IMG/VR virus record: IMGVR_UViG_3300036795_000443
Span: 1 to 38,993 of that record
DNA length: 38,993 bases
Strand: one strand, 5' to 3'
DNA from: a virus
Shown here: one piece after another, positions 4,401 to 35,465 of the stretch
Numbering within the stretch: the first letter of the stretch is position 1
How the letters are laid out: each line of letters opens with the position of its first letter
Notes under the pieces: model-generated
Databases searched by the model: none
Seen by the model: the letters and a program-made list of their open reading frames with translations, nothing else
What the model was told of the DNA's origin: nothing
Program-made: the position numbers and the translations under genes

Positions 4401-4657
4401 CTCGCTTTCTTCAGGCGCGTGCGCCGCGGAGCGTACTCCTCGGGAAAGAGGATCTGATCGCGGGTGACCGCGCCGGAGAAGAACTTCTCGATGCGAATGG
4501 CCAGCTCGGGCGAGGCGCGCTTGCGGCCGTTCTCAATCCGGCTGATGGTGGAGCGCGAGACCCCGACCGCCTTCGCGATGGCGTCCGGGATCACGCCGCG
4601 CCGCATGCGCTCGGACTTCAGCGGCGTTACGGATGTGTGCGCGCTGGTTTCAATCAT
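4397..4657 (-). CDS. XRE-family helix-turn-helix regulator (Cro-like)
   Basis: An 86-aa DNA-binding protein. The helix-turn-helix is IAKAVGVSRSTISRIENGRK, then a dimerisation-like helix (ELAIRIEKFF) and a basic C-terminus. I chose ATG at 4657 rather than the upstream GTG at 4699, because a start at 4699 would put the operators inside the gene. It is transcribed divergently from the LexA/CI-type repressor at 4709, across shared GTGCAC operator sites. This is the classic arrangement of a Cro/CI-type switch; which of the two keeps lysogeny is inferred from domain content. Confidence 0.82.
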   Translation of the reverse strand: MIETSAHTSVTPLKSERMRRGVIPDAIAKAVGVSRSTISRIENGRKRASPELAIRIEKFFSGAVTRDQILFPEEYAPRRTRLKKAS

Positions 4658-4667
4658 GGTGTGCCTA

Positions 4668-4710
4668 TTGTGCACTTTCTGTGCACCACGGGCAAGCACA
4701 ATCTGTGCAT
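4668..4710. promoter_or_regulatory. Repressor operator cluster
   Basis: The 51-nt gap between the divergent repressors holds TGTGCAC at 4669-4675 and again at 4680-4686 (11 nt apart), and the inverted repeat GCACA-atc-TGTGC at 4696-4708. The TGTGCAy half-site is the same as in the perfect palindrome at 5929-5945. No convincing -10/-35 pair could be assigned within the gap. Confidence 0.7.
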
Positions 4711-5350
4711 GATGGATGTGGGCGCGGAAATCAAGAGGCGCAGGAAAGCTTTAGGTTGGACCGGGGTGAAGCTGGCAACACTCGCGGGAATTTCGTCGCA
4801 GCACCTCTCGCGGATTGAAAACGGGAGGAGTTACTACACCCGCGAGACGCTGATGAAGATCTGCGGCGCGCTCGGGATCTCTGTCGACGCTCTGTATGCT
4901 GCCGGTTCCAACAGCAACGTGGAGCCGGCGGAGATTGGCTATCGCAAGGTCCCAGTTCTGGATTATGTTCAGGCAGGGCGGTGGATGAGCGTGGATGGGC
5001 GGCCCAAGGATGAAGACATCCAGGAGACGATCCTGACAGACCTGGAGCATCCGCCGAGCACGTTTGCGCTGCGGCTGCGCGGCGATTCGATGGCGCCGAT
5101 GTTTCAGGAGGGCGACATTGTGGTGGTAGCGCCAACGGTGGCGACGCAGCCCGGCGACTACGTGGTGGCGACGGACGAGAACGGCGAGGCCACCTTCAAG
5201 CAGTACCGGGTGGCGGGACGGAACGAGCGCGGCCAGGAGGTCTTCGAGCTGCACCCGCTGAACCCGATCTATGCGGTGATGCGCTCGGATCGCCAGCCGC
5301 TCGCGATCGTGGGGACGATGATCGAGCACCGGCGGTACCGCAAGCGGTAG
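4709..5350 (+). CDS. LexA/CI-type repressor with S24 autoprotease
   Basis: A 213-aa lysogeny repressor. Residues 6-62 are an XRE helix-turn-helix (LATLAGISSQHLSRIENGRS). The C-terminal peptidase S24 domain shows the cleavage site A89-G90 (DYVQAGRW), the catalytic Ser127 in GDSM and the base Lys164 in ATFKQY. The family self-cleaves when RecA filaments form, so DNA damage should induce this prophage. ATG at 4709 (or 4712) is chosen because the longer frame from 4637 would read through the operators. It is followed 13 nt later by the Tat-exported gene, probably on the same lysogenic transcript. Likely autoregulated through 4668-4710. Confidence 0.93.
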   Translation: MMDVGAEIKRRRKALGWTGVKLATLAGISSQHLSRIENGRSYYTRETLMKICGALGISVDALYAAGSNSNVEPAEIGYRKVPVLDYVQAGRWMSVDGRPKDEDIQETILTDLEHPPSTFALRLRGDSMAPMFQEGDIVVVAPTVATQPGDYVVATDENGEATFKQYRVAGRNERGQEVFELHPLNPIYAVMRSDRQPLAIVGTMIEHRRYRKR

Positions 5351-6451: not shown

Positions 6452-6470
6452 AGCTTTGAGTGTTCTGGCC

Positions 6471-7508
6471 ATGTTGAGGATCAAGCACCTGACCCACACC
6501 CCGGACGGGCGCAAGCTGACGCCGTCGGAGAAGGGTGTGCTGATGCAGATCGCGGACGACCACAACGAGGACCGCGGCTATGCGTGGCCTTCCGTGAAGA
6601 AGCTGGCGATGCGGGTGGGCTTGAGCGCCGACCAGTGCCGGCGGCTGATCCGGAAGCTGGAAAAAGAGAAGGTCATCCAGTCGCGGCCGCGTCTGCGCGA
6701 CGACAGCGATCTCCAGCTGGCCAACGATTATCGTTTCTGGTTCGACCAACCGTTCGACGCGGCGACTACCGCGAAGACGGACAAACGCCTGCGCCTGCAG
6801 GCGGCGTTACGGGCCAAGCGGCCCCAACAGATGAAGCTCACTCCCCCGGCGGAGTCCGGGAAGCTCTCGACGGTCTCGGCGAGCGCGGCTTCACCCCAGC
6901 AGGAACCGGTCGCGACCCCTGGCATGGATGCAAGGGGTGGGCTGGCGCCGGTGCAAGGGTCCCCCTTGCATGCGCGCAAGGGTCCCCCTGGCATGGATGC
7001 AGGGGTACCCCTGGCATCGGTGCCAGGGCAAACAACGTCAGTACAACAACCAAAGCTTCCTCAAGGACAGCTTTTAGATCAGCTGCCAGTTAATCCCCCC
7101 TACCCCCCGCCAACGGGGGGTGCGATTGCATCGAGCGGAAACGCTTCGCGTGAAAAGCTCGAAGACCCTGAAAAGCCCGACGACCCTGAAAAGCCGGACG
7201 ATCAGGCGAACTTCTCACTGCTGAAGGTGCGGCTGAAGCAGCAGCTGCTGGACGCGCCGAACGCCAAGGGCTTCCGCACCGTGCGGCCGGGCGAGAACGA
7301 CTACGACGCCTGCTTCCGCGACTGGTGGTTCGTGGAGCTGCGGCGAAGCCCGTCGATGGTCCAGGTGATCACGACGGCCGCGGACGAAGCGGCCAGCCGC
7401 GCCGCGCTGACGAAGTACTCCGGCCGGCTGGAGAACCTGGTGCGAGAGTGCTTCGGTGTGCCGCGGCGGACGTTGGTTGTGTTCAAGCTGGACCGCCGGA
7501 GCACTTGA
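6471..7508 (+). CDS. Replication initiator, O-like, with origin inside the gene
   Basis: A 345-aa protein. Residues about 14-85 form a winged-helix DNA-binding domain (LTPSEKGVLMQIADDH, then WPSVKKLAMRVGLSADQCRR) typical of phage replication O-type and helix_turn_helix proteins. The middle (about residues 150-190) is encoded by five tandem 23-bp iterons and is a Pro/Gly-rich linker; next comes a repeated DPEKPDD segment and a conserved C-terminal domain (about 245-345) of unknown detail, possibly the partner-binding domain. ATG 6471 is chosen as start; GTG 6420 is an upstream alternative. No helicase or polymerase is seen nearby, so it would load host replication proteins. The function is inferred from fold and iterons. 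Confidence 0.78.
   Translation: MLRIKHLTHTPDGRKLTPSEKGVLMQIADDHNEDRGYAWPSVKKLAMRVGLSADQCRRLIRKLEKEKVIQSRPRLRDDSDLQLANDYRFWFDQPFDAATTAKTDKRLRLQAALRAKRPQQMKLTPPAESGKLSTVSASAASPQQEPVATPGMDARGGLAPVQGSPLHARKGPPGMDAGVPLASVPGQTTSVQQPKLPQGQLLDQLPVNPPYPPPTGGAIASSGNASREKLEDPEKPDDPEKPDDQANFSLLKVRLKQQLLDAPNAKGFRTVRPGENDYDACFRDWWFVELRRSPSMVQVITTAADEAASRAALTKYSGRLENLVRECFGVPRRTLVVFKLDRRST
6916..7030. repeat. Five tandem 23-bp iterons (probable origin)
   Basis: Five units of exactly 23 bp start at 6916, 6939, 6962, 6985 and 7008. Each is an imperfect palindrome built on CCCCTGGCAT and its partner TGCaAGGG; units 1, 4 and 5 are closest to each other, unit 5 has the perfect arms CCCTGGCA/TGCCAGGG. Because 23 is not a multiple of three, the repeats are read in shifting frames, so selection must act on DNA, not protein. 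This matches lambda-type oriλ inside the O gene. Confidence 0.8.
7031..7120. promoter_or_regulatory. Candidate DNA-unwinding region and hairpin next to iterons
   Basis: Directly after the iterons comes the least GC-rich stretch of this gene (about 7031-7095). It ends in the perfect hairpin CCCCCCG-ccaa-CGGGGGG (7103-7120). Such an AT-richer block beside iterons is where strand opening usually occurs; the hairpin could be a replication or primer element. It is inferred. Confidence 0.45.
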
Positions 7509-8953: not shown

Positions 8954-9414
8954 TGCGGCCGCGCAAGGAAGTGCTGCTGGTGATGAAGAACGAGGCGGAG
9001 CTGGGCATCTGGAAGATGAAGCTCGAGGTGTGGGGATACCGCGCGCAGACCTGTGAAAGCACCGCGGCCGCGCTCGAGCACCTGCGCAACTTCCCGGTGT
9101 TTGCCGCGGCGACCTCCTTGCCCAGCGCGGCGCTGGCGCTGGCCGCGCGGATGGACCAGGTGCTGCTGTTTGGCGGGACCATTGCGCTCGCGAACCTTAC
9201 CGTCGGGCGCTTTGAGCCGCAGGGACCGGCGCTCGAGGCGCGGGTGCGGGAGGCACTGAGGATCCTGGTGGTCCGCAAGCGCGGCCCACTGCGTGGGACG
9301 CCCGCCAGCATTGCAGGCAGCGGATCTGAAAAGAAGCCGATGCAGCCGGCGGACAGGAAGCCGGTGAAGGGTGTGGCGGCGATCTTGGCGGCAGTGGATA
9401 AGAGGAGGGCGTGA
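8953..9414 (+). CDS. Response-regulator-receiver-like protein
   Basis: A 153-aa protein. The first 105 residues have the layout of a receiver domain (VLLVMKNEAELGIWKMKLEV, then GYRAQTCEST, AAALEHLRN), but the conserved phosphorylated Asp and the acidic pair are not evident, so it is a pseudo-receiver at best. The tail is Pro/Lys-rich and disordered. It overlaps the previous gene by 1 nt. A regulatory protein-protein role is inferred; the fold call is weak. Confidence 0.55.
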   Translation: MRPRKEVLLVMKNEAELGIWKMKLEVWGYRAQTCESTAAALEHLRNFPVFAAATSLPSAALALAARMDQVLLFGGTIALANLTVGRFEPQGPALEARVREALRILVVRKRGPLRGTPASIAGSGSEKKPMQPADRKPVKGVAAILAAVDKRRA

Positions 9415-10001
9415 TGGCGCATGAGGCTGCAAAGGCGTTTCCCCTGGCGTGGCCCGCGGGTCAACCGCGCGCACGATCGCGAGGGTCTTCGAAGTTCCGC
9501 GAGAGGAGCCTGGCTTCGGCGTTTCAGGAGCTCAAGGCGGAGCTCACGCGGCTGGGCGCGCAGTACATCGTGATCTCGACCAACGTTCCGCTGAAGGCGA
9601 ATGGCGAACCTTACTCCGATCCGGGGCGAATGCCGGATCCGGGCGTGGCCACGTACTTCAAGCTGCGCGGCAAGTCCTACGCGCTGGCCTGCGATCGCTG
9701 GTCGACGGTGGAAGAGAACATCTACGCCCTGGCAAAACACATCGAGGCGATGCGCGGAATGGAGCGGTGGGGCGTCGGCTCCGTGGAGCAGACGTTCGCC
9801 GGCTTCAAGCAGCTGACGAGCGAATCCGAGCCTGACTGGTGGGTGGTCCTCGGACTGGATGCTCGCGCCAGCGTGGATCAGATCCTCGCGGCGCACCGGG
9901 CGAAGGCGATGGCCGCGCATCCGGACCGTGGCGGCACGACCGAGCAGATGACGCGCGTCAACGTTGCCCGCGACCGGGCGTTGAAAGAAAGGAGTGCGTG
10001 A
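9414..10001 (+). CDS. J-domain (DnaJ-like) protein
   Basis: A 195-aa protein. Residues 35-135 form a domain seen in phage and prophage proteins (GAQYIVISTNVPLKANGEPY, then DPGVATYFKLRGKSYALACD). Residues 141-193 are a C-terminal J domain: DWWVVLGLDARASVDQILAA helix, the invariant HPD tripeptide at 169-171 in AAHPDRGG, and a final basic helix. J domains stimulate the ATPase of DnaK, so this protein could recruit host Hsp70, as lambda P does through DnaJ. ATG 9414 (GTG 9411 alternative) overlaps the previous stop. Confidence 0.82.
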   Translation: MAHEAAKAFPLAWPAGQPRARSRGSSKFRERSLASAFQELKAELTRLGAQYIVISTNVPLKANGEPYSDPGRMPDPGVATYFKLRGKSYALACDRWSTVEENIYALAKHIEAMRGMERWGVGSVEQTFAGFKQLTSESEPDWWVVLGLDARASVDQILAAHRAKAMAAHPDRGGTTEQMTRVNVARDRALKERSA

Positions 10002-13147: not shown

Positions 13148-13424
13148 CTGTTTCCCGGTGGGGGAGCTGCGGCGGACGGGGCTCCTCGGTGGGAGGAGCA
13201 TCCCGGCCACCTATTTTCAGAGACAGACGATACGAGCGCGCCCGGAACATCGGATCAGCGGCGGCCTCGCTCCAAGAAGGCCAACCAAGCGTTTGCAGCG
13301 TCATGTTCGAAATTTCATGTTCTTGCTAGTTTTTTGATAGTTGCCTCCCAAGCCAGCCAGCCGATGCCTTCGGCTGGCTGGCGTCGTTTCAGCCGAATCC
13401 GGCTCATTTTCTATCGGAGAATCG
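13148..13424 (+). other. Long untranslated leader with 13-bp hairpin
   Basis: No credible gene is seen in 13050-13424 beyond short shadow frames. The leader ends in a perfect 13-bp stem, 13352-13364 with 13370-13382 (arm GCCAGCCAGCCGA, loop TGCCT), without a following T run. A T-rich stretch precedes it. A role in antitermination or mRNA stability is possible. Confidence 0.45.
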
Positions 13425-20045: not shown

Positions 20046-20264
20046 ATGGAAACAGAGTTGTGGATTCCGATACCGCCGGAGCTGGTGTGGGTGCCCTATG
20101 AAACTACTCCGCGCCTCGATAACCCGAAGATCCAACAGGCGAAGACCGTCGCCGAGTACTGCGATCGCCAGATGCGCGAAGCGCTCGACGCGCTGACCGA
20201 GTCGTTTGTCGAGCTGTGGCTGGAAGCGAACCCCAACATGGCGCAGGTGCACGGGCATGCCTAA
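20046..20264 (+). CDS. Hypothetical protein before portal
   Basis: A 72-aa protein, ending 8 nt inside the portal gene. Helical C-terminus (YCDRQMREALDALTESFVEL). Function unknown. Confidence 0.58.
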   Translation: METELWIPIPPELVWVPYETTPRLDNPKIQQAKTVAEYCDRQMREALDALTESFVELWLEANPNMAQVHGHA

Positions 20265-22926
20265 AGGATTGCAGCCAGCGGACGCGCTTCGCGCCAACGG
20301 CGACGGAACGGGCGGCGATGGTACGGGTGGTGATGGCCAGCAGCCGGGCCCGGAGATCTTTACGGCGCTGGACTGGCAGCAGCAGGACCCGGACTATGTG
20401 CCAGGGCGCTACGCGTCGATCGACGTCAGTGACCAGCCGATGTTCGGGCCGGACGAGCTGGCGGGCTACAAGGATGTAATCGACCAGCTGACCGAGTCGG
20501 CCACCAAGACGGACTCGAGCTCGCGGATCTTCGAGATCCTGCAGGCCTGGGAGGCGCGGCTGTTCTCGCGCGGCTACCAGTTCCTACTCTCGGGCAACAA
20601 GGGCTGGGGATTGTTCGGCGGGGCGGGGCGGGCGACGCCGGGCTCCATCATGGCGGAAGCCAATGCGCGCAAGCTTTTCGCCTGCAATGTGTATGGCGCG
20701 CGCGAAGACAAGATTATTGCGGCGCTGAGCCGCGAGGTGCCAGGGCTGAAGTTCGGGCCGAAGGATCCTGATTCGCCGCCGGACCAGACCATGGCCGATG
20801 AGAGCGATACCTACCTCGAGGTCTGGAAGACGGATTCGGACATCAAGGGCGTGCTGGCCAAGATCAGCCGCCTGTTCTACACCGACGGGCGCGCGGTGCT
20901 GTGGACCCGGTCCGTGGCCGACCAGCAGCGCTGGGGTACGGAGGCGGTGACCCAGGATGAGACCTTCGGCGCCGGCGAGGCCGAGGGCGTCACGCCGGAA
21001 AACGAGATGCAGGGCGCAGGCGAGGCGCTCGACGTAGGTGAAGGCGAAGTTCTCCCACCCGGAGTGCTGTCCGACGCGGAGTCGGCGGAGTCGCCGGCGG
21101 TGTGTGAGATCACGACGGCGCACGGCACGCTGGAGAGTAAGCTGCCGATCTACGCGGACGAGATCTTCGACATGGGCCATCTTCGCCTGGCCGAAGAGGT
21201 CGACGTCGATATCCTGCGCGAGCGCTATCCGTGGATCGAGGACAAGATCGAAGCGGGGCAGTCGGCGGCGGGATCGAGCGACCAGTACGACCGCATGGCG
21301 CGCATCAATGTGCGGCTGGCGGTGCAGAACTCGACAGCCTCGGGCGAGACGTTCATGAAGGACGCCACCGAGACCCATACCTGGTTCCGGCCGAGCCAGT
21401 ACCGCATGATCAAAGACAAGACCAAGCGGGCAGCGTGGTACAAGAACTTCCCGCGCGGCTGCCGGATCACGCATGCGGGCTCGCAGTTTGCCTTCGCCCG
21501 CAACGAGGGCATGGACGATCACCTGACGGTGACGCACGCGCGCAAGGGCGATGGCCAGAACCGTCGCGCGATCGGCGCCAACTACCTGCCGCTGCAGAAG
21601 GTGCTGAACCAGAATCTGAGCCTGGTGGTGCGGTATTTTGTGGGCTGCATTCCGCGGCGCTTTGCGGCCGAGGGGCCGATCGACGTCGACGCGCTGAACC
21701 AGCAGTCGAGCGATCCGTCGATTGTGACGCCGGTGCGGTTGGAGAACCCAGCGCAGAGAATCCAGGACCTGACCGGCATCGAGAATGTGCCGACGATCGC
21801 GAGCGGCCTGATGGAGTTTGTGCAGTGGCTGGTGAATGGCGCGCCCGAAGCCATGGACGGCGCGACGCCGACGATGTTTGGCCAGGGCGATGTGGGCACG
21901 GTGGGCGAGTCGCAGCTGAACCGCGACCAGAGCCTGCAGGTGTTTGGCCAGCCCTGGGCGCATAGCTGCAAGGCGCTGGCCCAGGCGGCGACGCAGGCGG
22001 CGATGTCCGCGCGCGCCAACCGCAAGACCGACATCCGGAGCCGCACGCCGGGGCAGAACAAGCTGACCGTGCAGCTGGCCAATCTGAAGGGCAACGCGCT
22101 GTGCTATCCGGTGAGCCTGGAGATCCCGCAGACGCTGGCCGAGCAGGAGGCCCAGACCGCGCAGCTGGTGGAGCAGTCCGCCAACGTGGCGCTGTACAAG
22201 GCGATCGTCGAAGATCCGCTGAACCTTCCGTTCTTCTCCAACATGCCGAGCCTGAGCGGGCTGAACATCCCAGGGCTGGATGCGGTGGAGAAGCAGCAGG
22301 GCGAGTTCGAGCTACTGCTGGAGTCCGGACCGATCGACAACCCGGACCTGCAGCAGTGGCCGGACTACCAGAACTGGCAGCAGCTGCAGCAGGTCGTCGC
22401 CGAGGGTGAAACGCATCCGGAGGCGCAGACGCCCGACGGGGCGAAGTTACTTGCGCAGGCGAAACAGGCGCTTGCGTTGCTGCAGCCTCCGGTACCAGTA
22501 AAGATCTCGAGCGTGCCGGTGGCCCAGGACGGCAGCGAGAACCATGCGGTGGAGGCGGCGGTAACGCTGGCCAAGATCAACTCGCCGGAGGGCCGCAAGC
22601 TGAAGAACGGCGACGCCGAGCAGCAGGCCTGGTACCAGAACCTGTTGCTGCACTGGCAGCAGCATGAGGCGATCAAGAAGAAGCTGACGCCGGTGCCGCC
22701 GCTGATCCCGAAGGTGAGCATCACGGGCGCGATCGACAAGGCTCCGCCGGCAGTGCAGGCGCAGGCGTGGCAGGCGGTGGGCGTGCAGGCCGGGCCGGAT
22801 GACTTCACCAACGCGGGCGAGCTGGTGCCGCACGAGGTGACGGTTGAGAAGGAAGGCGTCGACGCCAGTGGCGTGCCGGTGAAGCAGAAGATCTCGACGG
22901 TGAATCCCGGCGGTCAACTGCGTTGA
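20257..22926 (+). CDS. Portal protein (P22-like)
   Basis: An 889-aa portal, the dodecameric ring through which DNA enters and leaves the head. The size, the long C-terminal region and the sequence ARKLFACNVYGAREDKIIAA then ISRLFYTDGRAVLWTRSVAD match P22-type portals (about 700-850 aa). ATG 20257 is chosen over 20206 because it follows the previous gene. Its N-terminus starts with a dispersed repeat copy (20266-20295, read as LQPADALRANG) followed by a Gly/Asp repeat, an unusual extension for a portal. Confidence 0.85.
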   Translation: MPKGLQPADALRANGDGTGGDGTGGDGQQPGPEIFTALDWQQQDPDYVPGRYASIDVSDQPMFGPDELAGYKDVIDQLTESATKTDSSSRIFEILQAWEARLFSRGYQFLLSGNKGWGLFGGAGRATPGSIMAEANARKLFACNVYGAREDKIIAALSREVPGLKFGPKDPDSPPDQTMADESDTYLEVWKTDSDIKGVLAKISRLFYTDGRAVLWTRSVADQQRWGTEAVTQDETFGAGEAEGVTPENEMQGAGEALDVGEGEVLPPGVLSDAESAESPAVCEITTAHGTLESKLPIYADEIFDMGHLRLAEEVDVDILRERYPWIEDKIEAGQSAAGSSDQYDRMARINVRLAVQNSTASGETFMKDATETHTWFRPSQYRMIKDKTKRAAWYKNFPRGCRITHAGSQFAFARNEGMDDHLTVTHARKGDGQNRRAIGANYLPLQKVLNQNLSLVVRYFVGCIPRRFAAEGPIDVDALNQQSSDPSIVTPVRLENPAQRIQDLTGIENVPTIASGLMEFVQWLVNGAPEAMDGATPTMFGQGDVGTVGESQLNRDQSLQVFGQPWAHSCKALAQAATQAAMSARANRKTDIRSRTPGQNKLTVQLANLKGNALCYPVSLEIPQTLAEQEAQTAQLVEQSANVALYKAIVEDPLNLPFFSNMPSLSGLNIPGLDAVEKQQGEFELLLESGPIDNPDLQQWPDYQNWQQLQQVVAEGETHPEAQTPDGAKLLAQAKQALALLQPPVPVKISSVPVAQDGSENHAVEAAVTLAKINSPEGRKLKNGDAEQQAWYQNLLLHWQQHEAIKKKLTPVPPLIPKVSITGAIDKAPPAVQAQAWQAVGVQAGPDDFTNAGELVPHEVTVEKEGVDASGVPVKQKISTVNPGGQLR
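20266..20295 (+). repeat. Dispersed palindromic repeat, in-frame
   Basis: Forward copy at the N-terminus of the portal gene, read as LQPADALRA; less conserved first half. Confidence 0.72.
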
Positions 22927-22947
22927 GGCGGGGACGCGCTAGCGCGC
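22926..22947 (+). repeat. Possible hairpin half of the dispersed repeat
   Basis: GGGGACGCGCTAGCGCGC immediately after the portal stop resembles the GACGCGC hairpin half of the family; the CATTGCATG half is absent. A comparable remnant is at 18271-18290. Confidence 0.4.
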
Positions 22948-22981
22948 GAGCAGCGGGCGTAGATACAGGAGACAGAGACAA

Positions 22982-24358
22982 ATGGAATTGAGCGAGTACA
23001 TGCCCGAACCGGGCGTGATCGAGACGTTGTTTGCGGTGGGCGAGGATGGTGGCTTCGATGGCGGTGCCGACGGAGGGCTTGAGGATCCTGGTGGCGACGG
23101 TGGCGGCGACGGCGGTGACGGCGATCTGGGCGACGGTCAAGGTGGCGATCAAAGCACTGAAGGCGCGGGCGCAGATGGACAGGGCGAAGGCGACAAAGCC
23201 GACGCGCGCTATGGGCCGAAGGAGTTTCGCGAGGCGCTGAAGACGTTCGAATCGACGCCGGAGGGCGCGAAGTTCGCCAAGCAGGTGCGCGCCGACTACT
23301 ACGCCACCCAGCAGCTGAAGCAGATGGAGCCAGGCGGCCTGCCGGCGATCCGCGAGAAGTATGCGCTGATCGAGAGTGTAGGCGGTGCCGAAGGCCTGAC
23401 CACGCTGCAGGAGCGGGTGCAGCAGACGGACGCGACCGACGCGGCCCTGGCGGCCGGCGATCCGAAGGCGCTCGAGGCGCTGGGCCCGGACTTCGATCCT
23501 GGCCTGGCCAAGCTGATGCCGTCGATTCTCGATCGCATTATGAAGGCCGATCCGGAGGCATACTCGGCGGCGCTGCTGCCGCACCTGATGGGCGGGCTGA
23601 TGAATTCGCCGATGGTGGGCGACCTGGACCGCATGATCGACGTGCTGGACGCGCCGCACCTGGATGAGAAGGGCAAGATCGCGGCGATTACCAAGCTGCT
23701 GGGAAATATCGGGCAGTGGTTCAAGGCCAACGAGGACCGCGCCGGCAAGCTGAAGACAGCGGGCAGCGACAAGGGCGCCGGCGACATCGCGGAGCAGCGT
23801 GCGCAGCTGGACCGCGAGACGCAGACCGCGCACTGGGACAACAAGATTGCGCCGCGGGTGACGACATACGAGCGCACCAAGCTGGAGGATTTGTTCAAAC
23901 CGTACGCCGCGAAGCTGAAGCTGGATCCGGCCGCGAAGGCCGACCTGTTCGATACCTTCAAGGCGCGGATGAAAGCTGCGGGCGAGGCCGACCCGGCGTA
24001 CATGAAGCAGATGAAGATCTACCGCGGGCAGAAGAATCCCGATCCGGCGACGGTGGCGAACTTTGTGAAGTCGGCGATCAACCGGCACGGGAAGGCTGTC
24101 GTCGACGGGGTGGTGAAGGCGCGCTACGGCCGCTTCATCGGCGGCGGAGCGAAGCCCGGCGTCCAGCAGGCCGGGGCGAAAACCGGTGCGGCGGCTGGCG
24201 CACGTGGGGCAGCGGGCACAGGCGCGGTGACGGTGGTGAGCGTGAAGCCGAACCCGGAGGAGATCGATTACCGCAAGACCTCGGAAGAGGATCAGTGGAA
24301 GAAGATCTACACGCTGAAGGACGGCAGGAAGGTGAAGTGGGTGAAGCCCGCCGCGTGA
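22982..24358 (+). CDS. Scaffold-like protein
   Basis: A 458-aa protein. The first 80 residues are Gly/Asp-rich and disordered (GGDGGGDGGDGDLGDGQGGD), the centre is helical (ALAAGDPKALEALGPDFDPG). Its place between portal and capsid and its acidic disordered N-terminus fit a scaffolding protein. GGAGACAGAGACAA precedes ATG. Identity rests on context and composition. Confidence 0.65.
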   Translation: MELSEYMPEPGVIETLFAVGEDGGFDGGADGGLEDPGGDGGGDGGDGDLGDGQGGDQSTEGAGADGQGEGDKADARYGPKEFREALKTFESTPEGAKFAKQVRADYYATQQLKQMEPGGLPAIREKYALIESVGGAEGLTTLQERVQQTDATDAALAAGDPKALEALGPDFDPGLAKLMPSILDRIMKADPEAYSAALLPHLMGGLMNSPMVGDLDRMIDVLDAPHLDEKGKIAAITKLLGNIGQWFKANEDRAGKLKTAGSDKGAGDIAEQRAQLDRETQTAHWDNKIAPRVTTYERTKLEDLFKPYAAKLKLDPAAKADLFDTFKARMKAAGEADPAYMKQMKIYRGQKNPDPATVANFVKSAINRHGKAVVDGVVKARYGRFIGGGAKPGVQQAGAKTGAAAGARGAAGTGAVTVVSVKPNPEEIDYRKTSEEDQWKKIYTLKDGRKVKWVKPAA

Positions 24359-24576
24359 TCGGGTTCATGCCGGGGAATCGAAATCGCCGGCCGATCTATG
24401 GCGTACGGACGGGTGGCAAGATCGGATATGCCGAACGCGACGAGCAGGGAAATGAATGGTTCTGTGGCCCCGACGGGAGACGCGTTGCGAAGGTCCTCCG
24501 CTTCAAATGCGAGGCACCTGAAGTCAGCGCGAATCTTTGCGGCGGAACGATCATTACTCTCGAGGACCTCGAGTAA
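24355..24576 (+). CDS. Small hypothetical protein
   Basis: A 73-aa protein, GTG start with GTGA overlap (ATG 24367 is an alternative). Contains KVLRFKCEAPEVSANLCGGT with two cysteines. Possibly a small head accessory. No family recognised. Confidence 0.55.
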   Translation: MIGFMPGNRNRRPIYGVRTGGKIGYAERDEQGNEWFCGPDGRRVAKVLRFKCEAPEVSANLCGGTIITLEDLE

Positions 24577-24604
24577 CCCATATCAGGATTTGTAAAGGTT
24601 TCGT

Positions 24605-24802
24605 GTGGTGCACGACGACAAAAGACGTCCTGCGCCACCGGAAAAGTTTGGCCGTAAGAGACAGCGGCCAGTGAGTAGAAGTACGGAGTACCAGATTCAG
24701 CCGCGGTTCGAGATCACTACCTCGTTAAACGTGAAGCCGGCGCGCTTGATCGATCGAGTGACGAGACATCACGACGCCATGATACGGGCGAGCTGCGCAT
24801 AA
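24605..24802 (+). CDS. Doubtful small basic protein before capsid
   Basis: A 65-aa basic frame (GTG start) between scaffold and capsid genes. AAAGG lies upstream. Codon choice is less like its neighbours, so it may be non-coding; the 24577-24853 stretch otherwise shows only the ribosome-binding site before the capsid ATG. Confidence 0.3.
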   Translation: MVHDDKRRPAPPEKFGRKRQRPVSRSTEYQIQPRFEITTSLNVKPARLIDRVTRHHDAMIRASCA

Positions 24803-24853
24803 GCGCGTTCGGGACGGACATGGGCGATCTCAGGCAAAGCAGGAAACAACATC

Positions 24854-26194
24854 ATGGCACCAGTGACAGAGCTGGCCTACGAGGCAGTGGAACTTGAAGC
24901 GTTCGTAGACCAGATTCCCGATTACCAGGCGCGCTTCAACAAGCTGCAGCAGCGGCTGTTGAAGGACGGCAAGAAGCACCCCATCTCCAACATGACCTCG
25001 GCGGGCGGCGTGCAGCGCCAGCCGCTGCGGGTTCCATTCCGCGCGCAGGGCGGCGCGGCCATCCAGCAGTTCTCGGCCGACAGCGGGGGCACGATCCCGA
25101 TGTGGCCGAGCGGCACCGGATCGACCACGGATTCGTTCGTGGCGGCGCCGGTCCGCATCATCAACACGTGCACCATCTCCAACCTCACCCAGCAGGCCAC
25201 TGACGGCAAGGATCGCGGCCTGGTGAAGGTGAACAAGGAGGAGATGAAGCAGTCGCTGAAGTCGTTCGAGAACGGCATCGAAGGCCTGTTCAACGGCGAC
25301 GGCTCGGGCACCATCACCAACATCCCGACCACCGCGACGGTCAGCTCGAACTCGGGTAGCGGAGCGCAGACCAGCTACATCAGCGGCCTGAACACGGTGG
25401 CCGGCTTCAGCGATCAGCAGGTGATCCAGGTGCTGCCGGCGGTGGGTGGAACGGCGCGCGGCGTGGCGACGATCAGCTACGTGGATCCGGTCGCGCAGAC
25501 GCTGTACTTCTCGACGGTGCTGCCGGCGACGGGTGGAGCGACGCAGACGGGCGACATCCTGGTGGTGCTGGGAGCAACGGGCACAGCCGGATCGTCGATC
25601 TACGGCAAGAACTACTGGATCGCGAACGGAAGCACGGGCACGATCGCGGGCATCAACAAGGCGCTGTATCCGGGCCGCCTGTCGACCCCGACCATCAACC
25701 TGAACAACACCGGCGCGATCACGCTGGCGATGTCCGGGCGCGTGGAAGCGCTGCTGTCCAGGGCGCGCGGCGACGAGTACGACGAGAACGAGCAGGAGTT
25801 TTATTACACCAACCCTGCCCAGGGCGTCGCGCTCTCGATGAGCTACTACAACACGCTCATCACCCGCGCCGATGACGGTGGCGAGGACGTTCCCGACCTG
25901 GCCAAGCGCAGCCTGCAGAAGCAGTGGGGCGGAAAGCCGGTGGTCTACTCGAACACCTGCGACCCGACCCGGATGGACCGCTTCCGGCCGAGCGACTGGC
26001 ATGTGGGCGTGATGTTCGATACGCGCCTGCATGAGTGGACGCCGGGCAACACGATTGCGCCGCTGCCGGCGGTGACCGCGGGCTACAGCTACTACGACGC
26101 GATCACCTTCGGGTACGAGTGCGGCCTGCAGCTGGTGTGCGCGGATCCCAAGGGACAGTTCTACTTCCAGGGCTTGCCAGTTCCAACTGTGTAG
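24854..26194 (+). CDS. Major capsid protein (probable)
   Basis: A 446-aa protein placed right after the scaffold-like gene and before the GroES-like gene. The N-terminal helix (VELEAFVDQIPDYQARFNKL) and the mixed beta-rich body fit an HK97-fold capsid, which shows little sequence identity between phages. There is a loop-rich Gly/Ser/Thr insert about residues 160-255. CAGGAAACAACATC leads the ATG. The call rests mainly on position and size. Confidence 0.72.
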   Translation: MAPVTELAYEAVELEAFVDQIPDYQARFNKLQQRLLKDGKKHPISNMTSAGGVQRQPLRVPFRAQGGAAIQQFSADSGGTIPMWPSGTGSTTDSFVAAPVRIINTCTISNLTQQATDGKDRGLVKVNKEEMKQSLKSFENGIEGLFNGDGSGTITNIPTTATVSSNSGSGAQTSYISGLNTVAGFSDQQVIQVLPAVGGTARGVATISYVDPVAQTLYFSTVLPATGGATQTGDILVVLGATGTAGSSIYGKNYWIANGSTGTIAGINKALYPGRLSTPTINLNNTGAITLAMSGRVEALLSRARGDEYDENEQEFYYTNPAQGVALSMSYYNTLITRADDGGEDVPDLAKRSLQKQWGGKPVVYSNTCDPTRMDRFRPSDWHVGVMFDTRLHEWTPGNTIAPLPAVTAGYSYYDAITFGYECGLQLVCADPKGQFYFQGLPVPTV

Positions 26195-26210
26195 GTAGAC
26201 AAGAACAGTA

Positions 26211-26266
26211 AGGTGGGGCCTTGGTGAAGCCACCTCAGGCTTAAACGAGAATGACTCGGCCCACCT
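26211..26266 (+). ncRNA. Candidate structured RNA between capsid and GroES-like genes
   Basis: Outer stem: AGGTGGG-g-CC (26211-26220) pairs with GGCCCACCT (26258-26266), one bulged G. Inside are two hairpins, GGTG-aagc-CACC (26223-26234) and CGAG-aatga-CTCG (26246-26258). A short TTTT follows at 26270. This three-way-junction layout could be an attenuator or processing site tuning GroES-like expression against capsid. Confidence 0.45.
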
Positions 26267-26289
26267 AGATTTTCAGGAGACAAAGAGAC

Positions 26290-26775
26290 ATGGGAGAGGC
26301 GAAGCAGCGCAAGCTGCGTGAGGCCGAAGTATTGGCGGCGGGGGAGGCACTGGGCGTGCCAATTATCCGGCCGCGCGAGGAAGTGAAGTTCCGGGCGGTA
26401 CTGGACAAGATCTTCGTGGAGGAGATCCCGGTGGCCGAGACAGAGCTCAGCACGAGCGGGCTTGTGCTGTCCGACCAGGCGCACACGCGGCTGTCGCGCA
26501 AGCCGATGACCGGCAAGGTGCTGGCAGTGGGCGATGGCGTGCCCATGGGCGGGATCCTGATGCCGATGCCGTACAAGGTGGGCGACGTAGTGCGCTGCTC
26601 TGAGTACGGCCGCGACTACATCAACCTGCGCAACGGCCGCAACGGAGAGAACGCGTTCGAGAAGGGCGAGGTTCGCACCTTCCTGATCCGCGTCGCCGAC
26701 ACCCACGGCGAACTGGTGCCATTGCATGGAGCGGACGCGCCTGACGGCGCCAATGCAAAGCTGGTGCTGGGCTAA
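26290..26775 (+). CDS. GroES (Cpn10)-like co-chaperonin
   Basis: A 161-aa protein with a Cpn10-type core about residues 34-116: VLDKIFVEEIPVAETELSTS (start strand and mobile-loop area), GLVLSD, then GKVLAVGDGV with GGILMPMPYKVGDVVRCSEY, matching the GroES pattern VGxG…KVGDxVLF. T4 gp31 and RB49 CocO are phage GroES homologues needed for capsid folding. Its place directly after the capsid gene fits that role. The mobile loop contact (IVL/IIL) is not obvious. The C-terminal tail VPLHGADAPDGAN comes from a dispersed repeat (26719-26751). Confidence 0.8.
   Translation: MGEAKQRKLREAEVLAAGEALGVPIIRPREEVKFRAVLDKIFVEEIPVAETELSTSGLVLSDQAHTRLSRKPMTGKVLAVGDGVPMGGILMPMPYKVGDVVRCSEYGRDYINLRNGRNGENAFEKGEVRTFLIRVADTHGELVPLHGADAPDGANAKLVLG
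26719..26751 (+). repeat. Dispersed palindromic repeat, variant hairpin
   Basis: Forward copy near the 3' end of the GroES-like gene. The hairpin is GCGCC-tgac-GGCGC instead of GCGC-ttc-GCGC, a change that preserves base pairing. Confidence 0.8.
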
Positions 26776-27452
26776 TGCCTCGAATCTGTCCCTCTGAGTT
26801 TCAGGACGCGTTCACGCGCGCCGGCGGGACCAACCCGTACGGCGAGCCGGTGTTCAAGATCGTCTGGGCGCAGCACGAGCGGCAGCGTTCGGGCGGCTAC
26901 TGGGCGAAGGATGGCTACCTCGGCTATCGCGACTTCCTGATCGGCGGCAACGAGCCGTGCTGGATGCTGATGATGTGGAAGCCGGCCGCGGCGTTCGGAT
27001 CTCCGGAACGCTGGTACTGGCACCACAAAGACGAGGCGACCGGGCTGCAGGAGCTGGGCGAGTATCCCTACAGCGGGCAATACGTGGTGCTGCACAAGTT
27101 CATTCATCGCGAGATGGTGAACGGCGTCATGGAAGTGGAGCGGCTGGAACTCTCCGGCTTCCTGATCGACGTGGTGCTGCCGGCGGTGAAGTTCTGGGTG
27201 GCGCTGACCGAGGAAGAAAAGGCTGCGGCGCTGCGGCTGGAGATGGAGCTCGAGGAGGATAAGGTCCTGAACGAGATGATGGACGCGAAGGCCGACTGCG
27301 CGCCGGCTTTCCGAGGCGCGACGGCGAGCTTCACGAATCAGGGCTGCCGGACCTCGGTGGTGGCCAAGAAGGTGGAAGTGATGGAGCGCGGGATGCGCCA
27401 GGCGATGGCGTTGGCGGCGAAGATGCCGAAAGGGATGATGCAGCTGAGCTAG
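26775..27452 (+). CDS. Hypothetical head-associated protein
   Basis: A 225-aa protein, 1-nt overlap with GroES-like gene. Aromatic-rich start (FKIVWAQHERQRSGGYWAKD), helix and charged end. It is possibly a head decoration or completion protein. No family recognised. The dispersed repeat (27453-27482) begins immediately after its stop. Confidence 0.58.
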   Translation: MPRICPSEFQDAFTRAGGTNPYGEPVFKIVWAQHERQRSGGYWAKDGYLGYRDFLIGGNEPCWMLMMWKPAAAFGSPERWYWHHKDEATGLQELGEYPYSGQYVVLHKFIHREMVNGVMEVERLELSGFLIDVVLPAVKFWVALTEEEKAAALRLEMELEEDKVLNEMMDAKADCAPAFRGATASFTNQGCRTSVVAKKVEVMERGMRQAMALAAKMPKGMMQLS

Positions 27453-27482
27453 CCATTGCATGGAGCGGACGCGCTTCGCGCC
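27453..27482 (+). repeat. Dispersed palindromic repeat
   Basis: Forward copy directly after the stop of 26775..27452, intergenic. Confidence 0.85.
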
Positions 27483-27581
27483 TCAAACGCGGCACGTTGT
27501 GGTGAGCTCTCCCGGGAGTAAGCTGGGCACAACTGAGCACCCTGGGATGCGCGCTGTTCAGACCCCACCTTTCGAAAGGGC

Positions 27582-28160
27582 GTGTCTATGAATCCCACCG
27601 CAACGCAGTCCAACCAGTATCCGCTGTACAAGTGCCACAAGGAAGTTTCTGCCGCGAAGATCCAGAGCGTCGAGCGTGGCGGCGACGGCTCGCTGACGCT
27701 TCACCTCTACGACGGCTTCGACAACGTCGTGATCCCGCACGAGGAAATGCAGCGCAAGCCCCGGCCGGAAACGGGCTGGTACCTGGTGCTGTATGGCGAC
27801 GGCTACCGAACGTTCTCGCCGGCGAAGGCGTTTGAAGAGGGCTATACGCCGGTCAGTGAAATGGCGGACGAGAGTGACAACGTCATCGCATTCGATTCGG
27901 CCATGCTGTGGCGCGAGTATGCTGCGGCTCTCGAGCGCAAGCTCAACACCGACACCGCTTCGATCGCCGGAAACGAGCGGCGCACCGAGCCTCCCTCGAC
28001 GCAGGAGATCAGGGAGATATCGGGGCTCCCTGCCACAGGCGCCGGCAGCAGCGAGCAGAGGCGGCGGGCGACCGACTGGCCGAATCCGGGCGACGTCAAC
28101 CAGGGCCAGCAGCAGGAGGAAGGCGAGCTGGACACAGTGGCCGCCAACTCGACCGGATAG
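27582..28160 (+). CDS. Hypothetical late protein
   Basis: A 192-aa protein; a second ATG lies at residue 3 (27588). N-terminus alpha/beta (YPLYKCHKEVSAAKIQSVER), C-terminus disordered (GQQQEEGELDTVAANSTG). It ends at a strong terminator. Function unknown. Confidence 0.6.
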   Translation: MSMNPTATQSNQYPLYKCHKEVSAAKIQSVERGGDGSLTLHLYDGFDNVVIPHEEMQRKPRPETGWYLVLYGDGYRTFSPAKAFEEGYTPVSEMADESDNVIAFDSAMLWREYAAALERKLNTDTASIAGNERRTEPPSTQEIREISGLPATGAGSSEQRRRATDWPNPGDVNQGQQQEEGELDTVAANSTG

Positions 28161-28185
28161 TACGAACGTTTCAAAGGAACGGAGA

Positions 28186-28208
28186 GCCCCGCCTCGAGCG
28201 GGGCTTTT
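28186..28208 (+). terminator. Intrinsic terminator
   Basis: Perfect 7-bp stem GCCCCGC-ctcga-GCGGGGC (28186-28204) followed by TTTT. It would end or attenuate the capsid-side transcript. A dispersed repeat follows at 28217. Confidence 0.8.
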
Positions 28209-28216
28209 CTATGCCC

Positions 28217-28247
28217 GGCGCGCAGCGCGTCGGCTGCATGCAATGCC
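28217..28247 (-). repeat. Dispersed palindromic repeat
   Basis: Reverse orientation copy between the 28186 terminator and the 28256 gene start. Confidence 0.8.
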
Positions 28248-28255
28248 AAGGAGAC

Positions 28256-29173
28256 ATGACAATTATGGAATTTCACGACCTGAATCACCCTGAGTCCAGG
28301 GAAAAGACGGCCGCTGCGAATGCGCAGTGGTTTGACCCGCGGGTCGACCGCAACATGCTGCGCACGCCGGACCGCATGATCCACGTGTTCTCGACCTCGG
28401 CGCGCGAGTTTCGCATCGATCGCGCACCGCTGTGGTCGAAGCTGGTGCTGCGCGGCTGTAAGCCGGGCGAGCGCTACGTTACTGTCGCCCATGTGCCCGA
28501 TCCGCTGATCCAGGCGGTGCACAACACCGAGAACGGACGTCAGCGCGGCGAAGCGCATGACGGCTGGCGCGCGGCCGTCGACCTGCTGAACCCGAATAAC
28601 CCGACCAACGATCCGGACTGGAATCCCGGGCCGGAGATGGCCGCGTTCTTCGGCACCAGTGCCGGTGCGGACCTGTTTGCGCAGGGCCTGTTCCTCTCGC
28701 TGAATGAGGTGCCGACGGAGCAGGAGATTGCCAAGGCGGAGGCTCGCCGCGGCAAGCGCTCCGAAGCGCTGATCGCGCATGCGGACTCGCTCGAGAGCAC
28801 GTCGCCCAAGGAGCTGATGGAGTTCCTGAACGGGCCGGACGGCATGGACCTGCGCATGGCGCTGGATTTCTTCGGCGAGGAGCGCGCGTACCACAAGAAG
28901 CGCAAGGCCTCGAGGCTGTGCCCGAACTGTGGTGAGTCGATCGCCTCCGGCGTGGGCTTCCACAAGAGCGCAGCGCTGGGCGTGATCTGCGTTCTCGACT
29001 GGCAGAAGGCTGTCGACGCAGGCGTGAAATCGAAATCTGACGTACCCCAAGGCAAAGAGTGGTGGCCATCACCTGGAGCGGACGCGCCTGACGGCGCCGA
29101 AGCGGATGCAACGGCGACTGCGAAGCCGGCAAAGAAGCCGGCAGCGAAGAAAGCAGCCGGCAAGGCTGCTTAA
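28256..29173 (+). CDS. Hypothetical structural protein with zinc ribbon
   Basis: A 305-aa protein. Residues about 1-110 are unknown (WFDPRVDRNMLRTPDRMIHV), a helical middle follows, and residues 220-245 hold CPNCGES. The C-terminal tail is Ala/Lys-rich (KPAKKPAAKKAAGKAA) with a dispersed repeat (29066-29098) read as PGADAPDGAE. AAGGAG lies too close for ATG 28256 and suits ATG 28265, so either start is possible. No recognised family. Confidence 0.6.
   Translation: MTIMEFHDLNHPESREKTAAANAQWFDPRVDRNMLRTPDRMIHVFSTSAREFRIDRAPLWSKLVLRGCKPGERYVTVAHVPDPLIQAVHNTENGRQRGEAHDGWRAAVDLLNPNNPTNDPDWNPGPEMAAFFGTSAGADLFAQGLFLSLNEVPTEQEIAKAEARRGKRSEALIAHADSLESTSPKELMEFLNGPDGMDLRMALDFFGEERAYHKKRKASRLCPNCGESIASGVGFHKSAALGVICVLDWQKAVDAGVKSKSDVPQGKEWWPSPGADAPDGAEADATATAKPAKKPAAKKAAGKAA
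29066..29098 (+). repeat. Dispersed palindromic repeat, in-frame variant
   Basis: Forward copy in 28256..29173 with the same variant hairpin as 26719-26751, read as SPGADAPDGAE. Confidence 0.75.
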
Positions 29174-29189
29174 AGGGACGTCAACCAAC

Positions 29190-29266
29190 CTTGGTTCCTC
29201 GGGACTCCATGCGGCATGCCGCGTGGCCATGTCTCCCGCGCGGCGGCGTGGATCCCGAGGGCCAAG
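29190..29266 (+). ncRNA. Candidate structured RNA (three-way junction)
   Basis: Outer stem CTTGG-tt-CCTCGGGA (29190-29204) pairs with TCCCGAGG-g-CCAAG (29253-29266). Inside, CCATGCGG-catg-CCGCGTGG (29207-29226) and a second CCATG…CGTGG hairpin (29227-29251, direct repeat of the same frame). T-G pairs fit the plus strand only. It fills the 127-nt gap before the 29301 gene. Function unknown. Confidence 0.5.
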
Positions 29267-29300
29267 TTAGCAAAATGCGAAGTTTTGGAAGCGTGAACGA

Positions 29301-30104
29301 ATGAGTGTTTCCGGCGTCCAGCGGTATCCGAACCTGCAGGGCATGATGGACCAGTTCCGCTCGCTGGTGAACGATGACGGCGGCGGCAACGATGGGCCGC
29401 AGGGCGGGATCATCGCGACCAACGATGCGCCCTTCACGAAACCGTTCCTGAATAAGGCGATTCGCTGGCTGTACCGCAACCTGCGCAACATCGGCGACCC
29501 GGCGCTGATCATCGACAACTACATCCTGACCGGGATCCCGGCGCTGACACAGCCGAACCCGGCCGTGCAGGTGAGCCTGGGCTTCCTGGGCTACTTCGAC
29601 GGCTTCGCGATGCACAGCGAGTGGAAGCTGCCGGCCGGAGCGATGGGGATCGACCGTCTGTGGGAGCGGGCGACCGGCACAGGGCTGGACTTTGTGGAGA
29701 TGCACGCGCGGCCGGATGGCCTGGCGCCGCGGATGCAGGTGGGCCGCATGGGCGTGTACGAGTGGCGCGGCAATGCGGTGTGGATGCCGGGCGCGCTCCA
29801 GGAGCTCGACCTGCGGATCCGGTGCAAGATCGCGATCCCGCCGGTGCTGGGCAAGAACATCAACTTTGAAAACACGTACGTGCCGATTCTCGATGCCGAG
29901 GACACGATCGTGGACCGGATGCTGGTGTATTACGCGAAGCGATTTGCGCCCGAGCAGAAGGCGGATGCGATGGCCGACTCGGCCGAGTCGCTGAAGGATC
30001 TGCAGCTGGCGATCACGCGGCAGAAGCAGCGCACGCAGAGCGCACGCGCGGACTTCGGCGAAGAGGCCGTGGGCAACTTCGCCGGATGGAACAACGACCT
30101 CTAG
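29301..30104 (+). CDS. Head-tail connector-like structural protein
   Basis: A 267-aa protein with motif-rich middle (NKAIRWLYRNLRNIGDPALI) and a helical C-terminus. Position after the head genes and before the large tail protein fits a podovirus head-completion/adaptor. Family not recognised with certainty. Confidence 0.58.
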   Translation: MSVSGVQRYPNLQGMMDQFRSLVNDDGGGNDGPQGGIIATNDAPFTKPFLNKAIRWLYRNLRNIGDPALIIDNYILTGIPALTQPNPAVQVSLGFLGYFDGFAMHSEWKLPAGAMGIDRLWERATGTGLDFVEMHARPDGLAPRMQVGRMGVYEWRGNAVWMPGALQELDLRIRCKIAIPPVLGKNINFENTYVPILDAEDTIVDRMLVYYAKRFAPEQKADAMADSAESLKDLQLAITRQKQRTQSARADFGEEAVGNFAGWNNDL

Positions 30105-30163
30105 TCCGCACGATCTGTAGAGCGAATTGGAAACGAAAAACCCTTTTTAGGGAGAGGTGAACC

Positions 30164-30541
30164 ATGGCAACAGCAACAGTGAAGTTAAAGGTGAATGCGC
30201 CGCCGGCCGGTGTGGACAATACCCAGCGCCGGCAGATTGTGGAGGGCGTGGCGACGCTCTCGACGGGCGGAGACTATGTGGCCGGCGGGCTGCCGATGAC
30301 GTGGGTGTTTACCGATTCGCAGGGCGGGGCGTTCATTCCTGAGTGGAGCGACGCGGAGCCGCTGTGGACAGAGTTCAAGTCGCTGGGCGGCAATGTCGGC
30401 CAGACGTACCTGTACGAGGCTGGGGACGCGGACGGTGCCGGGTTCCTGCACATTGCGGTGGATGGCACGGAGCTGGACGGCGCCGTCGCGATTCCGGCAG
30501 ACATCGTCGGTTTCCGGGTGGAATACGCCCGCGGCTACTAA
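30164..30541 (+). CDS. Small structural protein
   Basis: A 125-aa protein, beta-rich (MATATVKLKVNAPPAGVDNT start). GGAGAGG precedes ATG. It precedes the large tail-nozzle gene and may be a head-tail adaptor or decoration protein. Function inferred only. Confidence 0.6.
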   Translation: MATATVKLKVNAPPAGVDNTQRRQIVEGVATLSTGGDYVAGGLPMTWVFTDSQGGAFIPEWSDAEPLWTEFKSLGGNVGQTYLYEAGDADGAGFLHIAVDGTELDGAVAIPADIVGFRVEYARGY

Positions 30542-30561
30542 CGGGCAGCTGAAAAACAAGG

Positions 30562-33500
30562 ATGCATAACCTCGGCCCTGGCGTGCAGGCCGTCGCTCTT
30601 GAGACTTACGGCGGCCTGGTCACGCTGGCGCGTCCGGAGAACGTTCCGGAGGGCGCCAGCCCGCGCAACTACGACATCGACTATCTGATTGGGAGCGCGC
30701 AGACGCGCGCCCCGCTGCAGAGCGTGTACAGCTACGAGGACGCGGACACCGGCGCGCGAACGCCGGATGCCGCCGTGAATACCACGCTGACGGGCAAGGC
30801 CTGGCAGAACCCGACCAGCGTCTTCGCCGGCGACGGAAGCTACGCGACGTGCAACTGCGCGGGCGGAAGCGATGCGCTGGACGTGACCTCGTTCGCGCTG
30901 GACCTGGAGCCGACGGTCACGCCGATCGGCCTGACGGTGACGCTGACCGGATTCACGCAGTCGGCGGTGACGCTGACGGCGCAGCTGCTGAAGAACGGCG
31001 TGCCGGTGGGTACGGCCAAGCAGGCGGCGCTGCCCTCGACCAACACCAGCGTCATCCTCGGTGGCCCCACCGACCTGTGGGGCACGACGGTCACGAGCGA
31101 CGACGCCAACAATGTGGGCTTCGGCGTGCGGATTACGGCCGATTCGAGCTTCCCCGGAGCGCAGGCGCTGATCGACGCGGTGACGCTCGACGTAAGCCTG
31201 GCGCTGAGCAGCGCGAACTTCAATTTCATTACCACCTTCACGGCCTATGACGGCAGCGTGAAGAACCTCTCAATCGACGCCAACGGCGGCTGGTGGGTGG
31301 AGGATGTCACCAACAATCCCGGCGAGCTGAGCCTGCTGCCGGTGCCGGTGACGCCGGGCTCGTTTGCGAGCGCGGTGAATGGGCCGGGCGTGGAGTACTT
31401 CGCCTTCACCGACCTGACCACGGGAAGCGATCTGCCGCGGCAGTACACGCCGGAATGGATTGACCGGATCTCGCAGGTGGGGCCAGGTGCGGCGCCGGTG
31501 TTTGCGGTGTCGACCAATGCGGCCGGAACCCCGGCGGTGATTACGGCCTTCGCCGTGAGCGGCGATGTGGTGACCCTGACGGCGGACAACAGCTTCAGCG
31601 CGGGCCAGCCGGTGCTGTTCTCCGGGCTGACGCCGGCAGCTTTCCTGAACGGGCAGACGCTGGTGGTGCTGGGCTCGGGCCTGTCAGGAACGCAGTTCGA
31701 GGTGGCCTTCACGCACGCCGACGTGGGAACGACGGCCGACAGCGGAAAGGCCACGCCGCAGACCAACTATCCGATCGCGACGATTACGCAGCCGGCGGCG
31801 CAGTCGCGCGGATTCTCGTACTTCCTGCAGTCGACGGGGCCGGGCTCGACCTCGCCAGGCAACGTGATCACGGCCTACTACTCGGACTCGACGACTTCGA
31901 GCGCGGACCAGGACCTGGTGGACGCGTTCAACAGCGGCAACGCGGTCTATCTCTACTTCTCATTTACGGGCACGCCGGTGCCTTTCGGCCCGCTGACGGT
32001 GCAGGTGACCAGCGTGGGCCTGGGCTCGCCGCCGGACCAGCCGCGCCAGTTCTACTACTTCACCTTCACGACGACGAACGCCGCGGCCTACACGCTGTAT
32101 GCGGGCAGCGGGCATTCCGGCTATACCGCGAACTACCAGCGCACGCTGGCGACGATGACGACGAGCGAGCCGGTGCCGGTGCTGGGTGTGGGCTCGAGCG
32201 CGACGATCGCGGGCACGAGCGTGAGCAACTACGACTCGACCTGGCCGATCGCGCAGGCGCTGAACTCCGGAGCGATGGCGATCACGCAGACGTCGCTGAC
32301 CGGCGGCGTGGCGACTTACAGCTACACGGTGGTGAGTGGCGCGAACCCGACGGCGGAGCAGCTGGTGACGATCACCGGGACGCTGAACGCCAACGGAATG
32401 CTGAACGGCGCAGACCTGGTGATTGCAGGCGTTATCGGCACGAACCAGGGCACCTTCACGGTGAACGGCTTCAGCTCGGCGCAGGATTATCCGGTTGCGG
32501 CCGAGCAGGGCCAGGCGACGACGGCCGGCACCGAGTTCAGCTTCGATCCGGGCCTCGAGACGCTGGGCAGCTCGACGAGCCCGATCTATGGCGCCTCGTC
32601 CGGCGGATACCTGATCTTCGCCGGCAACGGGCAGTATCTTTCCGCAGGCACCAAGCAGGGTGTGGTGTTCTTCATCACGCGCAACGGCTACTGGACGACG
32701 CCGAGCGCGCCGGTCACGTTCTCCATCCCCGAAAACTCAACCGCGATTTTAGCCAGCCAGATCCCGATCGGGCCGCCCAACGTGGTGGCGCGCGGGATCG
32801 CGTTTACGGAGAGCGGGGCGAACAATGTGCCGGGCGCGAACTTCTTCACCCTGCCGACGCCGCAGCAGTACATCGTCAACGGGGTGACCTACACCGCGAG
32901 CTCGCTGTTCGTGATGGACAACACGTCGACGACGGCGAGCTTCAGCTTCCCGGACTCGGAGCTGCTGCAGGCCGAGGCGATCGATCAGCAGGGCAACGAT
33001 CTCTTCAACCTGCTTGAGATCGGCAACCCCGGGTGGATCGCGAAGTATGCCAGCCGCAACGCCTACGGGCTGTGCCAGAACAAGGTACAGAACTTCGTCA
33101 ACCTGAGCTTCGACGGCGGCTACCTGCCGGGCGTGCAGCTGACGCCGCTGGGCTGGACCGCGCCGGACCAGTACGGCGAGCTGCTGGTTTCGCCGATCTT
33201 CGGCAACTCGTACTACATCAAGAACTCGACCACGGGAACACTGGCGATGGCCGGGATGATCGCGCAGGCGGCATACCAGGACGCGTACCAGCAGCCGATC
33301 CTGGCCGCGAATACCGGCTACAGCGTGCGCGTGACGGCGCGGGCCCCTTCCGGGCTCACCACCGGCAGCCTGGTGGTGGACCTGGTGGCCAACGGGGTGA
33401 GCTATGGCAGCTTCACCACGCCGTTCGCGAACCTGACGACGGCCATGCAGACGCTGACTGGAACGTTGCTGACGAACGGGTTAGCGACCGTACCCGGAGC

Positions 33501-34781: not shown

Positions 34782-34786
34782 ACTTG

Positions 34787-35457: not shown

Positions 35458-35465
35458 ACGGCCTG

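Follow-up and report, generated by a model that had tools for sequence, protein, structure and literature searches.

A candidate replication origin of palindromic iterons within the initiator gene of a temperate phage probably infecting Acidobacteria

The initiator gene and its product

The stretch of DNA analysed here, referred to as the window, is the viral record IMGVR_UViG_3300036795_000443 with a length of 38,993 nucleotides. An open reading frame ending at position 7508 encodes a protein of the Pfam family HTH_36 (PF13730; E-value 5e-11, 42.6 bits compared with a cut-off of 25), the match comprising residues 20–70 of the TTG-start protein. In addition, it matches two PHROG groups annotated as 'replication initiation (O-like)', phrog_270 (1.9e-10) and phrog_391 (1e-9). 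A match to PF04492 (Phage_rep_O), which is found by lambda O itself with 6e-36, was not obtained at E ≤ 0.1. The features of the locus are listed in Table 1.

Table 1 Features of the initiator locus and copies of the dispersed element in the window
Feature	Position	Strand	Remarks
Initiator gene	6456..7508	+	start TTG 6456 or ATG 6471; winged helix, long linker, C-terminal domain
Winged-helix DNA-binding domain	6498..6740	+	residues 10–90 from ATG 6471; AlphaFold, HTH_36
Iteron 1	6916..6938	+	CCCCTGGCATGGATGCAAGGGGT; 82 % palindromic
Iteron 2	6939..6961	+	GGGCTGGCGCCGGTGCAAGGGTC; 55 % palindromic, most diverged
Iteron 3	6962..6984	+	CCCCTTGCATGCGCGCAAGGGTC; 73 % palindromic
Iteron 4	6985..7007	+	CCCCTGGCATGGATGCAGGGGTA; 64 % palindromic
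Iteron 5	7008..7030	+	CCCCTGGCATCGGTGCCAGGGCA; 82 % palindromic
AT-richer block, candidate DNA unwinding element	7031..7093		core 7040–7081, 60 % AT; equivalent 3' of the array in relatives
Hairpin	7102..7121		ACCCCCCG-CCAA-CGGGGGGT; perfect 8 bp, 4-nt loop
Three 18-bp repeats, in frame	7151..7204	+	EKLEDP / EKPDDP / EKPDDQ
C-terminal domain	7200..7505	+	42 % identical to L005/L006; AlphaFold
Dispersed element GCTSCATGCAATGS	817, 6289, 7533, 28233	+	
Dispersed element GCTSCATGCAATGS	7781, 11279, 26719, 27453, 34765	−	

In the AlphaFold model the winged helix is predicted with confidence (pLDDT of about 90 or more for residues 11–70 and 74–81 for residues 71–90). It is followed by a disordered linker (residues 116–238), and the stretch coding for this linker contains the iterons, the AT-richer block and the hairpin. 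The C-terminal domain (residues 244–341) is modelled with moderate confidence (mean pLDDT 63) and is a possible recruitment domain for a helicase or a helicase loader. A Foldseek search with the model returned generic winged helix-turn-helix (wHTH) proteins, none of them at E ≤ 0.001.

Five open reading frames downstream of the gene (at 7592, 7788, 8953, 9411 and 9839) gave no helicase-loader match in Pfam and PHROG. The product of one of them (9411–9998) belongs to phrog_9210, a group of unknown function, and has at its C-terminus a weak match to the DnaJ J-domain, which at 8.6e-5 does not reach the Pfam cut-off. Since initiation in lambda employs the host proteins DnaJ and DnaK, a role of this protein in replication is conceivable. 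In the loci around the J-domain protein (L088–L097) no HTH_36 initiator was found.

The iteron array

The array at 6916–7030 consists of five units with a strict period of 23 bp, and among five-unit arrays with a period of 15–35 bp it has the highest score of the whole 39-kb window. The original prediction of five exact iterons holds for the number of units and the strict period but not for the exactness, as the identity at a lag of 23 bp is 0.696 over the four steps (70 %) and the units are similar rather than identical. Units 1 and 4 agree in 20 of 23 positions. Unit 2 is badly diverged, so that perhaps only four sites are working.

Every unit is an imperfect palindrome of about 22 bp with the consensus CCCCTKGCATnnRTGCMRGGG, a property which had been missed before. 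The symmetry is strong in three units and weak in unit 2; ranked against all 22-mers of the window, units 1 and 5 each belong to the top 0.03 % and unit 2 to the top 5 % only. The iteron pattern matches on both strands and, at 0–1 mismatch, does not occur in the window outside 6917–7028. It is this confinement, leaving no copy near the repressor gene, that makes it highly improbable that the array serves as a set of operators for the CI/LexA-like repressor encoded at 4637–5350, despite the operator-like size of the palindromes and a distance to the repressor gene of just 1.6 kb. Furthermore, dyads are present at the equivalent intragenic place in related initiator genes.

A period of 23 bp is not divisible by three, so the reading frame changes from unit to unit, and it is the DNA that is conserved, as had been proposed. 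The encoded peptide does not repeat across the units, except for PGMDA in units 1 and 4, which are 69 bp apart. In 2000 codon shuffles of the gene, the score of the array was not attained once (shuffle maximum 0.567). Together with the dyad symmetry, the frame shift and the shuffles render it very unlikely that the array is a protein-level repeat or a low-complexity linker sequence devoid of a function in DNA, an explanation to which the disorder of the linker and the presence of the in-frame 18-bp repeats would lend themselves. These latter repeats are best read as a protein-level repeat of the linker lying outside the iteron array.

The AT-richer block and the hairpin

The predicted AT-richer stretch behind the repeats is borne out by the 40-mers starting at 7040–7042, which represent the AT maximum of the gene (60 % AT compared with 35 % gene-wide). 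They belong to the top 0.28 % of the window and are the sole ones at that level in the gene. Nevertheless, with 60 % AT the block is modest, which counts against the reading as an origin.

The perfect GC hairpin, originally given as 7 bp, is extended by one A–T pair to 8 bp, with seven GC pairs in the arms 7102–7109 and 7114–7121. Perfect hairpins of at least 8 bp with a loop of 3–8 nucleotides occur nine times in the window (two of them overlapping), and three lie within 6952–7121. Among the relatives described below, a GC hairpin 3' of the array is restricted to GC-rich members (L005, L056, L058 and the window); most of the AT-richer relatives have none and the hairpin is not family-wide, so it may be a trait of the lineage or a mere consequence of composition. 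Elsewhere in the window, a perfect 12-bp hairpin (CCAGCCAGCCGATGCCTTCGGCTGGCTGG, 13353–13381), possibly a terminator, lies close to the 40-mer with the highest AT content in the window (13303).

Related initiators

Viral matches were found for the N-terminal domain (54) and for the initiator of phage C72C1 (24), the contigs being partly shared. In a set of 67 initiator genes, which includes lambda and the window and in which redundancy was kept, 35 genes contain a tandem array with a period of 18–27 bp (p ≤ 0.01 by codon shuffling), mostly near codons 85–125. For the window, the automatic array finder picked the 18-bp coding repeat instead of the iterons as the best array of this survey, and it also took a wrong period in the comparison of layouts, for which the values of the window are those measured directly on the array and the AT content. 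The tandem statistic misses jittered arrays as in L140 and L141 (p 0.17–0.4), and in L140 the half-sites are visible by eye (ATGCGA-ACTC-TCGCAT).

Perfect TGACA-N2–7-TGTCA dyads are concentrated within the genes: after removal of redundancy, 18 of 32 related initiator genes (26 kb in total) contain 36 of them, compared with three in the flanks, which amount to 116 kb. Codon shuffling gave a mean of 0.15 and a maximum of 2. Of the genes compared, 33 of 35 (lambda included) reach their AT maximum at codons 85–170. One of the two that deviate is the gene of the window, where the longer linker moves the maximum to codon 206 (numbering from GTG 6420), still directly 3' of its own array.

The environmental 'O-like' HTH_36 initiators (for instance C72C1, L014 and L028) resemble the one described here in the wHTH N-terminal domain, an in-gene dyad array of about 23–25 bp right behind it and a subsequent AT block. 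In phage C72C1 (OQ984150) the units measure 24 bp, contain TGACACAGTTGTGTCA and precede an AT block, and the units of L014 (CCCTGACACCAGATGTCGGGGTTA) are similar to the iterons of the window. However, the usual half-site of the HTH_36 initiators is TGACA/TGTCA, whereas the window has TGGCA/TGCMA, and its C-terminal domain differs from that of the other members. This domain is shared with the loci L005 and L006 alone (42 % identity); further close relatives were found neither in the genome contigs nor in the phage records. Both loci possess repeats of about 23 bp with a different sequence at the equivalent place. These are followed by a block of 65 % AT, and the hairpin ACCCTCCCTGGGAGGGAGGGT is situated about 77 nt past the array.

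It is quite conceivable, if still somewhat doubtful, that an HTH_36 winged helix, dyad iterons and an AT block form a cassette of DNA-binding domain plus origin that is widespread in tailed phages. Its members would share a recognisable half-site, TGRCA, in many cases flanked by CCC/GGG, with a half-site spacing that varies from 3 to 6 bp and with C-terminal domains that can be exchanged. In this view the window would be a diverged member from Acidobacteria phages to which a GC hairpin, a possible single-strand initiation site, has been added.

Comparison with lambda and with iteron plasmids

The sequence of the lambda origin, in the middle of gene O, shows four iterons (starting at 39034, 39054, 39078 and 39101), an A+T tract and an inverted repeat. 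The lambda iterons are inverted repeats bound by O dimers, and a 40-bp A+T region opens (PMC5043065, PMC7466680). All elements of this architecture are found at the locus, namely an in-gene array 3' of the code for the DNA-binding domain, iterons with inverted repeats and an adjacent A+T-richer region, and the order of the parts, including the final inverted repeat, is equal. Differences exist in the iterons, which are palindromes of about 19 bp spaced by 20–24 bp in lambda but five GC-rich 23-bp units of another sequence here, in the N-terminal domain (PF04492 in lambda O, HTH_36 here), in the P gene, of which none was recognised alongside, and in the AT block with its just 60 % AT. As the N-terminal domain falls outside PF04492, the similarity to the lambda origin is argued on the basis of mechanism, not of membership in the same protein family. 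A search by sequence yielded no solved structure of lambda O.

Iteron plasmids likewise combine an iteron array with an AT-rich opening region. Their iterons bind initiator monomers (PMC5043065), whereas the palindromic units described here would be expected to bind dimers.

The original prediction had regarded the arrangement as independently organised. This view finds no support: iterons, AT block and inverted repeat follow the order of lambda, and the HTH_36 relatives share the dyad array and the AT block, which is explained more simply by a common design.

The candidate origin and its possible mechanism

The anatomy, the non-randomness of the array, the family of the initiator and the layout shared with relatives are matters of observation. 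Judged from the sequence, the region 6916–7121 is very probably the theta replication origin of the phage, located in the linker-coding part of the initiator gene; its anatomy and the comparison with relatives support the predicted analogy to the lambda origin in O. A turning point of the GC skew at 7 kb was not seen. The remaining tandem arrays of the window are short (two to three copies of 15–18 bp), so that no better origin candidate is apparent among them.

This also bears on the idea that the array is an autoregulatory operator by which the initiator blocks transcription in its own gene while replication starts elsewhere. Palindromic sites for a wHTH dimer within the gene could indeed act as a roadblock as well, and the locus might combine both roles, operator and origin. 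However, an array of five phased sites with an AT block behind it agrees with the origin anatomy of lambda and the relatives, and operators in place of an origin are therefore improbable.

For an origin at this site, binding, melting, helicase loading and any role of the hairpin are steps that we infer. Dimers of the encoded winged-helix protein would occupy the palindromic iterons, each 23-bp unit (about two helical turns) taking up one dimer, and would bend them to form a nucleoprotein complex. Opening of the AT-richer block at 7031–7093 would come next, and the C-terminal domain may recruit the replicative helicase of the host, directly or via a loader. As a guess, the GC hairpin could, once the DNA has melted, act as a structured site for landing or priming on the single strand.

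Host and further features of the phage

The phage is temperate and its host is probably a soil member of the Acidobacteria. An Acidobacteria host is indicated by a dispersed repeat and by the relatives of the terminase. The element GCTSCATGCAATGS is present in eleven copies at 0–1 mismatch in the window, and at up to two mismatches 15 copies compare with 1.8 expected. It is often preceded by or adjoins a GC hairpin (GCGCG..CGCGY), often at the ends of genes. A longer form was detected in 36 stretches of genome contigs, of which 35 lie in Acidobacteria assemblies and one lies in Paraburkholderia, and one of those Acidobacteria genomes contains 98 copies of the core; the element looks like a REP-like repeat of the host carried by the phage. 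Terminase relatives are encoded in 51 of 399 genomes of the Acidobacteria class, the best with 79 % identity. In the 12 kb read at the locus of this terminase (L142/L150, G161 contig 158) an HTH_36 initiator was not found.

Relatives of the N-terminal domain are encoded in two genomes of the Acidobacteria class. One shows TGCGA/TCGCA dyads by eye and the other TCGCA direct repeats followed by a block of 75 % AT, neither being significant by the tandem test. The original prediction had called the phage podovirus-like. The large open reading frames scanned in the structural region (20206–38372), including those of 906, 458, 446, 421 and 1400 aa, had no PHROG match at 1e-3 that would bear on this assignment, and among 50,697 phage records tblastn gave no match to the one of 906 aa.

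Conclusions

In-gene origins with such a layout have been known since lambda. The locus described here is a well-supported candidate for an origin of this known design in a little-known phage, and many related environmental phages have this layout in common. It provides a precise and testable candidate origin for a phage probably infecting Acidobacteria. Moreover, the comparison suggests a rule for finding origins in uncultured phages, that is, a series of dyad repeats of 22–25 bp just past the winged-helix code of an initiator gene, with the AT maximum of this gene behind it.
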